Below, in pieces: positions 257 to 14,753 of a DNA stretch of 14,888 bases. Under the pieces are notes generated by a model that was not told the DNA's origin, did no database searches, and worked only from the letters and a program-made list of their open reading frames with translations. Source of the DNA: Microcaldota archaeon (lineage in GTDB: Archaea > Micrarchaeota > Micrarchaeia > Norongarragalinales > UBA8480). The position numbers were made by a program, and so were the translations under genes. Position 1 is the stretch's first letter, and the number at the start of each line of letters is the position of its first letter. Location: positions 1-14,888 of the forward strand of contig JAHFHC010000024.1 in NCBI GenBank assembly GCA_023247085.1, read 5' to 3'.

Positions 257-283
257 CTTTTTCTTTTTCGTAAAAAGAAAAAG
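257..283 (-). repeat. CTTTTTCTTTTT hairpin in rRNA spacer
   Basis: A perfect 12-bp inverted repeat, CTTTTTCTTTTT and AAAAAGAAAAAG, with a 3-base loop starts 7 bases after the 3' end of tRNA-Ala. It is the same hairpin that sits inside the tRNA and 16S introns, but here it is outside any recognised RNA gene. Two more AAAAGAAAA-type tracts follow further down the transcript. It could belong to a further excised segment of the spacer, to a processing signal, or to a copy of a small element. Confidence 0.8.
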
Positions 284-304
284 GGTTTCATGGACTCGAC
301 GGGA

Positions 305-449
305 TATTCCGCGCCATGCCTTTTCTTTTCTAAAGAAAAGGCCAGGCGTGGCCAAAAGAAATGAAAACTATTTCATCATTATGGCACATTGCCTTTTCTT
401 TTTAGCGCCTCGCCAGGGTCTCAAACGAACACGTTTGCGGACCAGGCCT
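305..449 (-). other. tRNA-Ala intron 2, T-loop (59/60), 145 nt
   Basis: The exon reads GCGGG-TTCAAA up to 450 and resumes with T-CCCGT at 304. The 5' bulge AAA (451-449) and 3' bulge TAT (306-304), each cut after the second base, give TTCAAAT. The central helix is imperfect (TTC/GAA plus an A-G mismatch), so the exact ends are less certain than for the other introns. Inside are CAAACG/CGTTTG (422-437), ATGAAA/TTTCAT (361-376), the CCTTTTCTTT/AAAGAAAAGG hairpin (319-341) and a free copy of the purine arm (391-405). It is the longest intron in the window, more than twice the size of most others. Confidence 0.75.
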
Positions 450-471
450 TTTGAACCCGCGACCTCCTGCT

Positions 472-533
472 TTTTTGAAAAAGAATTTTTTTCTTTTCGT
501 CAACGTTTTCTTTTTGTAAAAAGAAAAGGTTGT
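472..533 (-). other. tRNA-Ala intron 1, anticodon loop (37/38), 62 nt
   Basis: This is a canonical BHB. The outer helix is the anticodon stem CCTGC/GCAGG and the 4-bp central helix is TTTG/CAAA. The bulges are CAA (535-533) and AAA (473-471), cut after the second base. Most of the intron folds as CAAC-(C)-TTTTCTTTTT paired with AAAAAGAAAA-(C)-GTTG (501-532). A second purine tract (489-498) forms a small hairpin, GAAAAGAA with TTCTTTTTC. Confidence 0.88.
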
Positions 534-585
534 TGCAAAGCAGGCGCGCTACCACTGCGCTACGAGCCCATACTTGTAATTTTTT

Positions 586-673
586 TAGGAAAACCAATTG
601 TCGAAAATACTCAGTTGTGTAATATACCAGGTTGAATTGAAAGATACGAAAATAGAGTCAAAACTCTCTTGCG
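586..673 (-). other. 16S trailer arm of the rRNA processing stem
   Basis: Between the 16S 3' end and tRNA-Ala, several segments are complementary, in nested order, to the 16S leader. The stretch 586-599 is a perfect 14-nt reverse complement of 2440-2453. Further similarity runs on to about 660 (TATACC..GGTTGA, GATACGA, GTCAA), matching the leader down to about 2378. Alternative short pairings also exist: ACTCAGTTG at 609-617 with 2343-2351, AAACTCT at 661-667 with 2328-2334, and CTTGCG at 668-673 with 2310-2315. Archaeal pre-16S is excised from such a leader-trailer stem by the BHB endonuclease. Confidence 0.75.
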
Positions 674-712
674 CTTCCTATTACTGTTAGTCTTCCAAAA
701 TTAAAAAAATTT

Positions 713-2267
713 TGGAGGTGATCTAACCGCAGGTTCCCCTACGGTTACCTTGTTACGACTTAACCCTCCTCACGAACATCTAGCTCGAATCAGTCCATAG
801 GACTGAGCCTCACTAAAAGCTCGCTTGGGTGGCTTGACGGGCGGTGTGTGCAAGGAGCGGGGACATATTCACCGCGCGATGATGACGCGCGATTACTAGC
901 CATTCCAGCTTCACGAGGACGAGTTTCAGCCCTCGATCCGAACTTGGGTAAAGTTTTGGGGATTGCCTTCGCCTTTCGGCGTCGGAACTCATTGTCTTTA
1001 CCATTGTATGCCACGTGTGGCCCAGGAAATTCAGGCCATACTGACCTAGCGTCGCCTTCTCCTTCCTCTCACTTAACGTAAGCAGTCTCCACAGAGTGCC
1101 TCTTGCATCACTGCAAAAGTAGCAACTGTAGACGAAGATCTCGCTCGTTGCAGGACTTAACCTGACACCTCACGGCACGAGCTGACGCTGGCCATGCAAC
1201 ACTTCTCAGCTTGTCGGCCAAGATCTTTAGTCTGGGCTTCATTCTGCTGTCTTTCCTGGTGAGTTTCCCGGCGTTGAGTCCAATTGAACCGCAGCATCCA
1301 CGGCTTGTGGTGCTCCCCCGCCAATTCCTTTAAGTTTCAATCTTGCGACCGTACTCCCCAAGTGGCAGACTAAACGGCTTCCCTTCGACACTGCATTCGC
1401 TCGAAGCAAATGCAACGCCAAGTCTGCATAATTTACTGCTAGGACTACCCGGGTATCTAATCCGGTTTGCTCCCCTAGCCTTCGCCCCTCACCGTCGGAC
1501 GTGTCTTGGTATGACGCTTTCGCCACTGGTGGTCCTGCAAGGATTACAACATTGTAAACCTTATCGGGTTTTCTTTTCCGATAAACACGCTTTTCTTTTT
1601 AAAAAAGAAAAGGGTTTTTTACCGTTCCCCCTGCAGTACCTCATACCTCCTCCACTCCCTAGTCTGGAAGTGTTCCCTGCTCGCCTCTACGTTAAGCGTA
1701 GAGATTTGACAAGAAATTTTCCAAACCGGCTACGAGCGCTTTAGACTCAATATTCGTGGACACCACTCGTGCTACCTGTATTACCGCGGCGGCTGGCACA
1801 GGATTTACCCACCACTTATTCTCCAAGCTATTCAAGCTTAGCAAAAGAATCCCTTTCGGGAATCACTCGGATTACCCCCGTCACACTTTCGTGCATTGCG
1901 GAAGTTTCGCGCCTGCTGCACCCCGGAGGGCTTGGGCCCTTGTCTCAGTGCCCATCTGGGGGCCATCACTCCCATGACCCCTACTGATTATAGGTTTGGG
2001 GGTCCATTACACCTCCAACAGCCTAATCAGCCGCAGTCCCATCCTAGAGCGAAACTACTACAATTTGCAGCTCATTTAACTCGCTTCCCATTCCAGGTGA
2101 AGAGAGCGATGCGGTATTGACGACACTTTCGCGTCGTTATCCCGCTCACTAGGGTAGGTTGACTACGTGTTATTCAGCCGTTCGCCAAGACTCGAAGTCG
2201 AGTCTTTAGACTTGCATGGCTTAATCGCAATCCGATAGCGGTGTCCTCCAGCAGGATCAACTGGTGT
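713..2267 (-). rRNA. 16S ribosomal RNA, interrupted by one intron
   Basis: This is the small-subunit rRNA gene. In transcript sense it begins ACACCAGTTGATCCTGC and contains GTGCCAGCCGCCGCGGTAA (515 region), TTAGATACCCGGGTAGTCC (790 region), AACTTAAAGGAATTGGCGGGG (910 region, archaeal type) and GCACACACCGCCCGTC (1400 region). It ends in GATCACCTCC, the anti-Shine-Dalgarno sequence. The ends are placed by comparison with archaeal 16S and may be off by a few bases. Removing the 65-nt intron at 1552-1616 leaves about 1490 nt. The leader (2378-2453) and trailer (586-660) pair, and tRNA-Ala follows 143 nt downstream. Open frames in this interval are artefacts of the rRNA. Confidence 0.98.
1552..1616 (-). 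other. 16S rRNA intron in the 690 loop (h23), 65 nt
   Basis: The exon ends ACGGTAAAA (1617) and resumes TGTTGTAATCC (1551). The joined sequence CGGTAAAATGTTG aligns without a gap to the E. coli 690 loop CGGTGAAATGCG, so the site is after position 696. The BHB has central helix GTAA/TTAC, 3-base bulges AAA (1618-1616) and AAT (1553-1551), intron helix ACC/GGT, and a short exon helix AAC/GTT with one unpaired G. Inside are CTTTTCTTTTT/AAAAAGAAAAG (1590-1612) and TTATCGG/CCGATAA (1561-1584), whose loop is a second AAAAGAAAAC tract. Confidence 0.85.
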
Positions 2268-2270
2268 TGA

Positions 2271-2294
2271 GGAATGCAGAACAAACTGCATTCC
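2271..2294 (-). other. Hairpin just before the 16S 5' end
   Basis: A perfect 9-bp inverted repeat, GGAATGCAG with CTGCATTCC and a 6-base loop, lies 3 bases outside the predicted 5' end of 16S, inside the processing stem. It may help define the mature 5' end. Confidence 0.65.
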
Positions 2295-14284: not shown

Positions 14285-14335
14285 GAAAATTTGTTAGCTG
14301 TTTTTAACTAATAAACTTATTGACTAGAAGATATT

Positions 14336-14350
14336 GTAGAAGTTTAAAAT
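14336..14350 (-). promoter_or_regulatory. Promoter-like repeat, copy 1 (before the Cys-rich protein gene)
   Basis: ATTTTAAACTTCTAC in transcript sense is identical over 15 nt to the element before tRNA-Pro. It directly abuts the 3' end of tRNA-Gly and lies about 52 nt before the start codon at 14284. As a TATA box it would start transcription near 14320. Confidence 0.5.
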
Positions 14351-14363
14351 GCGATCGCCGGGA

Positions 14364-14427
14364 TTTTCGTAGCTGGAAAATTTTCTTTTCCCAACAGGCT
14401 TTTCTTTTTTATAAAAAGAAAAGGCTT
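14364..14427 (-). other. tRNA-Gly intron 2, T-loop (59/60), 64 nt
   Basis: The outer helix is the T-stem CCGGG/CCCGG and the central helix is TTCG/CGAA. The bulges are ATA (14429-14427) and AAT (14365-14363), cut after the second base. Inside are CTTTTCTTTTT/AAAAAGAAAAG (14399-14423) and a second purine tract, GGGAAAAGAAAA, whose plus-strand copy is at 14381-14391. Confidence 0.88.
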
Positions 14428-14448
14428 ATCGAACCCGGGCCTCAAGCT

Positions 14449-14505
14449 TTTTTCGGAAAACTAGTTTTTAGTTTTCGATCGAACCTTTTTGTAAAAAGGC
14501 TCGCT
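14449..14505 (-). other. tRNA-Gly intron 1, anticodon loop (37/38), 57 nt
   Basis: This is a canonical BHB. The outer helix is CGAGC/GCTTG and the central helix is TTTC/GAAA. The bulges are CAA (14507-14505) and AAA (14450-14448). Inside are a short version of the module, CCTTTTT/AAAAAGG (14484-14499), the palindrome TTCGATCGAA, and a hairpin GAAAACTA/TAGTTTTC. Confidence 0.9.
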
Positions 14506-14647
14506 TGGAAAGCTCGAATCATACCATTAGACTACGACCGCATTTGAGTATTATTTTTTAGGTGAAGTAAGTAATAAAAGAGAATTGTTCAATGCGTTTA
14601 AAGCAACTGAATATTCTAAAAGCAAGTTTGAAATGGGACCACCGAGA

Positions 14648-14681
14648 TATCTGCGCAAAACTAAACGAGTTAATTTTGCGT
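14648..14681 (-). other. tRNA-Pro intron 2, T-loop (59/60), 34 nt
   Basis: The intron is a simple hairpin, CGCAAAA with TTTTGCG (7 bp). It is flanked by bulges AAA (14683-14681) and TAT (14649-14647) and by a weak central helix TTCG/CAGA (one wobble, one mismatch). The geometry is still that of a BHB, and the junction gives TTCGAAT. It has no CTTTTCTTTT module. Confidence 0.82.
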
Positions 14682-14687
14682 TTCGAA

Positions 14688-14753
14688 TTACCGAAACCTT
14701 TTCTTTTTTGGGCTCAAAGACTTTTTTCTTTTTATAAAAGAAAAAAGGGTTTG
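14688..14753 (-). other. tRNA-Pro intron 1, between T-stem and T-loop (53/54), 66 nt
   Basis: The bulges are AGC (14755-14753) and AAT (14689-14687). The central helix is CCCG/CGGT with three pairs, the intron helix is AAACC/GGTTT, and the outer helix is a short TGA/TCG. Inside are CTTTTTTCTTTT/AAAAGAAAAAAG (14721-14747) and a second purine tract whose plus-strand copy is at 14697-14709. Confidence 0.85.

Follow-up and report, generated by a model that had tools for sequence, protein, structure and literature searches.

The 14,888-nucleotide contig JAHFHC010000024.1 of a Microcaldota archaeon (GenBank assembly GCA_023247085.1), called the window here and analysed at its full length, carries several copies of a short three-arm module in the introns and spacer of its tRNA and 16S rRNA genes. 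The window is one contig (C28) of a 36-contig, 0.89-Mb genome (G000). The module is a mobile repeat that was recently inserted at new sites, as two empty sites in genomes of the same genus indicate, and its third arm is the mirror image of the purine arm of its hairpin. It is probably an A-rich member of class II of the potential intrastrand triplex (PIT) elements, mobile at the DNA level and harboured by stable-RNA introns.

A hairpin with a mirrored third arm

On one strand, the module runs in the order pyrimidine arm (Y), short loop, complementary purine arm (R), turn, and a further purine arm (R'). The turn between the purine arms is mostly 6-20 nt long, and longer in two copies. The third arm is often closed by GG/CC in a small stem of its own, or set off by a mini-hairpin turn. 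The original prediction took it for a second copy of the purine arm, but it is the mirror of that arm. Thirty-eight homopyrimidine hairpins with arms of at least 9 were picked from 855 kb of the source genome, blind to the third arm, and the next 60 bases were compared with the purine arm in both reading directions. The backward (mirror) reading matched better in 29 and the two tied in 9; the direct reading was better in none. For example, R at C9:6586 is GAAAGAAAAAAA (GA3GA7) and the third arm is AAAAAAAGAAAG (A7GA3G), and at C35:82569 R is AAGAAAGAAAAG and the third arm AAAAGAAAGAA.

A second comparison covered 78 genomes (the source genome and its relatives) and searched only the asymmetric arms A3GA5 and A5GA3. 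Outside the source genome, the matches came from 22 genomes: 71 hairpins had a mirror arm, 1 a direct arm and 6 were ties, while 8 had no third arm. Copying or correction of a hairpin can account for the match between Y and R, but not for the mirror arm. No copying process gives a mirror, so the three arms co-vary, and the mirrored lengths of the A runs would need selection to be kept. This covariation supports the triple-helix reading put forward in the original prediction. Imperfect hairpins were too few for a comparison of G.U with A.C mismatches, which would bear on selection at the RNA level.

The eight hairpins and seven extra arms which had been predicted for the window are all at the stated coordinates, and most of them pair up as modules. 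Unless noted, the copies lie on the minus strand. In the 16S gene (archaeal, 713-2267, Rfam RF01959), the intron has a hairpin at 1590-1612 with the transcript CTTTTCTTTT tta AAAAGAAAAG and the mirror arm GGAAAAGAAAA at 1569-1579. The same mirror arm, GGAAAAGAAAA, stands at 14381-14391 beside the hairpin of the T-loop intron of tRNA-Gly(TCC) at 14399-14423. The T-loop intron of tRNA-Leu has a hairpin at 8210-8234 with the R arm A4GA5G, and a mirror arm GGA5GA4 at 8191-8202 (mirror 11 versus direct 9). The intron in the T arm/variable loop of tRNA-Pro has a hairpin at 14721-14747 with the R arm A4GA6G, and A6GA4GG at 14697-14709 (again mirror 11 versus direct 9). In the anticodon-loop intron of tRNA-Ala the hairpin is at 501-532 (R arm A5GA4) and the mirror arm A4GA5 at 488-498 (mirror 10 versus direct 9). 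The spacer module 3' of tRNA-Ala has its hairpin at 257-283 (R arm A5GA5G) and its third arm, transcript AAAAAGAAAAAA, at 179-190, beyond a long turn with two stem-loops.

The module in the T-loop intron of tRNA-Ala is inverted relative to the tRNA. Its hairpin lies at 318-342 on the plus strand, with the R arm A3GA4GGC, and its third arm is A4GA3 at 354-361 on the plus strand, so that the transcript reads UUUCUUUU, which is class IV, a pyrimidine motif. Positions 391-405, which had been listed as an extra arm, have no pyrimidine partner of their own. The turn of this copy, GCCAGGCGTGGC(C), is also found in copies on contigs C15, C16 and C24. One supposed shortened form, in the anticodon intron of tRNA-Gly at 14484-14499, is a plain hairpin (CCTTTTT/AAAAAGG), and it was excluded as a member because it has no G/C register and no third arm.

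Copies, insertion sites and distribution

The source genome has 13 occurrences of the hairpin pattern, against 0 for a reversed control. A search for Y-R-mirror R' groups covered the assembled stretches (891,601 of 892,562 bases) and returned 46 groups for arms of 8 or more and 25 for arms of 10. The reversed sequence gave 3 and 0, and three Markov-3 shuffles of 855 kb each gave 0 at arm length 8. Groups with a direct arm numbered 41 at arm length 8 and 4 at arm length 10; the short-arm count of direct groups is inflated solely by the symmetry of A4GA4. Counting by hand left about 44 modules per 0.89 Mb (52 groups at arm length 7, minus 8 that were neighbour cross-pairs and two weak matches).

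All but two of these modules are in or beside tRNA and 16S genes. They occupy tRNA introns in the T, anticodon and D loops and in the T arm, the 16S intron, the tRNA-Ala spacer, and positions beside tRNA genes. Both exceptions are at protein genes: the copy at C16:13797-13844 follows a stop codon, and the one at C26:3845-3879 lies just before a start codon. The original prediction confined the module to the introns and spacer of stable RNA genes; this holds for the association with those genes and fails for the two copies at protein genes and for some copies that are in tRNA leaders or trailers, outside introns. Abundant copies at protein genes or in intergenic DNA at large would have spoken against it, and there are 2 of about 44; absence from other tRNA introns would also have counted against it, and this holds in part, several tRNA introns of the source genome having none. 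Several tRNA genes of the window have introns, and ARAGORN misses these genes as they stand. When about a dozen of the T-loop inserts are excised in silico, tRNAs with 5-7 acceptor pairs result, and predicted folds show exon-intron helices, in line with presumed bulge-helix-bulge (BHB) splicing.

The arrangement of some copies is more elaborate. One tRNA region (C36:25620-25960) holds five modules or more, distributed over a truncated 5' duplicate, the anticodon loop and the T loop. Within single T-loop introns at C29:5274-5387 and C35:30898-30996 two modules face each other, which makes their third arms complementary, purine in one module and pyrimidine in its partner. Modules also stand in trailers, directly 3' of intact tRNA ends (C25:38460-38503 in the source genome, loci L286-L292 in G067, and L136 and L161), and in a 16S intron of other genomes at a different position, after the GCAGCAGGCGCGAAACTTCCGCAATG region (L238 in G009, L259 in G027).

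Orientation relative to a tRNA could be read where automatic rebuilding gave a tRNA around the module, in the source genome or a relative: 60 modules were sense, with the third arm on the 3' side of the transcript, and 5 were inverted; the other 127 module groups had no tRNA call, and many of these come from further introns or short flanks. The ratio is similar by hand reading in the source genome, where the inverted set includes the tRNA-Ala T-loop module at 318-361. The 65 oriented cases are not 65 independent events, since the copies of any one genome are related to each other.

Turn sequences are common to copies of one genome and tend to differ between genomes; those shared within a genome include GCCAGGCGTGGCC and CGTCGACG in the source genome, GTGCGGTTCACCC in G067, CATTAATTAG in G021 and GTCTGGATCAACCCC in G072. 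Flanking direct duplications of at least 14 bp were found at 22 of 192 module groups (some of the 22 being one locus read on both strands), compared with 9 of 2000 random positions, and at none of the 11 module-free tRNA genes of the source genome. These duplications are exact over 14-52 bp and variable in length.

Two insertions have an empty counterpart in a genome of the same genus. The insert at C26:3845, 54 bp long and containing the module, is flanked by two copies of a target of about 30 bp; in G002 the target is single and module-free, with flanks about 89% identical. At C27:25362, the module comes after a 52-bp exact duplication that comprises the leader and first ~25 nt of a tRNA gene, and in G001 the tRNA part is single and has no module. 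The same arrangement is seen at other tRNA genes in G015 (L266) and at C36:25640, and in G021 (L277) a whole tRNA gene stands on one side of the module and a repeat of that gene's last 21 bp on the other. Such a layout would be one step from a D-loop or T-loop intron. Modules beside partial tRNA duplicates (C27:25300-25460, L266 and L277) are possible intermediates in the birth of introns. A 39-bp duplication in G064 had no empty-site match in two congeners. The empty sites, the flanking target duplications and the shared turns support the earlier suggestion of a mobile or copied element rather than chance.

Of 78 genomes of the class, 25 have the module in its strict symmetric form, and a control pattern had 0 matches in the set. 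A scan of GTDB genomes found at least 113 stretches with the module. Among the matches listed, the bacterial taxa are Oscillospiraceae, other Clostridia, Selenomonadales, Lentisphaerae, Bacteroides, Chitinophagales, Gastranaerophilales and Polaromonas, and the archaeal taxa are ANME-1/Methanophagales, Altiarchaeota, Aenigmatarchaeota, Diapherotrites and further groups. Among the same matches, bacterial loci divide into 36 mirror, 4 direct and 28 ties, and other archaeal loci into 15 mirror versus 5 direct; the bacterial locus L139 has perfect mirrors of 21 and 23 nt. Viral contigs gave a single match. Bacterial hairpins often have a short foot, GTTAC/GTAAC, with the third arm one base later. 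Repeats of the form GTTAC-Y-loop-R-GTAAC-C-R' are seen in distant phyla, including Polaromonas (L102, L109, L112, L118, L121, L139, L154 and others), and in the literature searched no report of the GTAAC-type sequence was found. A known RNA family was also considered and rejected: the only Rfam match in the window is 16S, and an Rfam scan of 17 public loci returned only tRNAs and a TPP riboswitch, with no family that covers the module.

Two further genes of the window encode large secreted-looking proteins, one at 4080-6665 on the minus strand with a TSP3 repeat match, and one at 11900-14284 on the minus strand which is cysteine-rich and has no Pfam match.

Nature of the element

Y, R and a reverse-Hoogsteen R' stand in order on one strand, and the third arm mirrors the purine arm (A.A-T, G.G-C), as in class II. 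Holder 2015 (PMC4666352) describes Y-R-mirror R' as the class II purine-motif PIT, reports that a GC-rich member is a stable triplex in single-stranded DNA in vitro, and links such sequences to local genome instability. A single strand of the module would fold with Y and R paired and the third arm antiparallel along R. The element would spread as an insertion of about 50-60 bp, which can leave a long target duplication of variable length. In Micrarchaeota, tRNA and rRNA genes and their immediate surroundings hold most of its copies, the majority in introns that are presumably cut out by BHB splicing. These introns may be a safe harbour for the element and sometimes, perhaps, its creation. The register of the arms would be kept by a DNA phase, as a single strand during insertion or replication.

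We favour a triplex at the DNA level, since RNA reportedly cannot form purine-motif triplexes (Holder 2015, citing earlier work). The same rule holds in bacterial loci and at the two non-tRNA sites, which makes a DNA-level element at least as likely as an RNA element, and insertion with target duplication also counts for it. Several points weigh against this account. According to Holder 2015, a stable triplex in vivo is unsupported even for the GC-rich motif. The first loop fits the 1-6 nt loop setting of the ITxF definition and the turn exceeds it; this is an operational limit and not a structural requirement. A search of the source genome for a Y1 transposase (PF01797) found none, and no enzyme that could move the element was identified. 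Nor does an element confined to DNA account, on its own, for the 60:5 sense bias or the near-exclusive location at stable-RNA genes.

Those last two observations are what an RNA-level triple helix would address. In pre-tRNA and pre-rRNA the mirror arm would lie in the groove of the hairpin, either as an all-RNA antiparallel purine triple helix or as an A-rich minor-groove triple, and the compacted intron would let the BHB halves meet. Besides the sense orientation and the placement of about 42 of 44 copies, the closed or set-off third arms fit such a fold. We nevertheless regard it as unlikely, since it runs into the reported inability of purine-motif triplexes to form in RNA (PMC4666352), and the inverted orientation, which would give the RNA-competent pyrimidine motif, is the rarer one; the bacterial loci, the two non-tRNA sites and the tRNA introns that lack a module count against it as well. 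The fuller proposal that an all-RNA antiparallel purine triplex folds introns for splicing and spreads as a mobile unit creating new tRNA introns is more doubtful as a whole. The strand bias may have a simpler origin. Archaeal RNA polymerase terminates at T-rich tracts, and a sense module exposes one pyrimidine tract where an antisense module exposes two, so that the bias would follow from the anatomy and no triplex function in RNA would be needed. Some sense modules keep runs of T6-T7, which argues against this; it is a serious possibility, at somewhat less than even chances. It concerns the strand bias only and is compatible with a DNA-level PIT element.

A two-state RNA switch, also raised in the original prediction, would have the pyrimidine arm pair with either purine arm. 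The symmetric A4GA4 core does permit a 9-bp alternative pairing in many copies. However, asymmetric arms follow the mirror register (71:1 in relatives; 25 mirror versus 4 direct groups at arm length 10; GA3GA7 versus A7GA3G at C9:6586), so the second antiparallel pairing is broken and only the 9-nt core can pair both ways. This largely refutes the switch, which we consider very improbable. Chance or low-complexity A/T-rich sequence, which the short, A-rich arms might bring to mind, is refuted by the shuffles (39 groups versus 0), the reversed pattern (13 versus 0), the control without a match in 78 genomes, and the empty sites, and its probability is negligible.

Significance and known systems

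PIT repeats have long been catalogued, but a clear function was lacking and so was comparative proof of selection on the third arm. The mirror register is retained here across many genomes and differing arm patterns, which gives the triplex rule direct comparative support. With their duplicated tRNA parts, the empty sites may offer a concrete, testable route for the birth of archaeal tRNA introns. Should the orientation bias reflect RNA folding, it would contradict the position that RNA cannot form purine-motif triplexes.

In the literature searched, no internal three-arm module common to introns and no link of tRNA introns to triplexes was found; a mobile-element origin has already been proposed for one case of an archaeal tRNA intron (PMC3293823). 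Archaeal BHB introns of tRNA and rRNA share the module's location and its presumed removal by the splicing endonuclease, but the module also occurs outside introns. Miniature inverted-repeat transposable elements and repetitive extragenic palindromes are likewise short, non-coding hairpins in many copies, whereas the module has a long variable target duplication and no terminal inverted repeats were seen, nor was a matching transposase found in the source genome (no PF01797). The U.A-U RNA triple helices of MALAT1, the PAN element for nuclear expression (ENE) and telomerase also join a hairpin to a third strand; they use two U-rich arms and one A-rich arm, while the sense module has one pyrimidine and two purine arms, and two pyrimidine arms would arise in the few inverted copies alone.

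A further parallel is offered by the GC-rich G-quadruplex/triplex repeats of Methanomicrobiaceae, which fold as an antiparallel triplex (PMC8044849). These are likewise archaeal, dispersed and capable of an antiparallel purine triplex, but they are G-rich, have the reverse arm order with the C-rich arm 3'-most, and are intergenic near gene ends. The closest match is PIT class II (Hoyne and Maher; Holder 2015 ITxF; enterobacterial TMECO/BoxC), which has the same Y-R-R' order and mirror third arm, is likewise dispersed in many copies and is tied to local rearrangement. Its known members have G-rich arms and a turn of about 3 nt and are intergenic, whereas the module has A-rich arms with a single G and a turn of mostly 6-20 nt, lies in tRNA and rRNA introns, is strongly oriented with the gene, and shows target duplications and empty sites. 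A-rich PIT elements that colonise the stable-RNA introns of Micrarchaeota are a new form of this known class.

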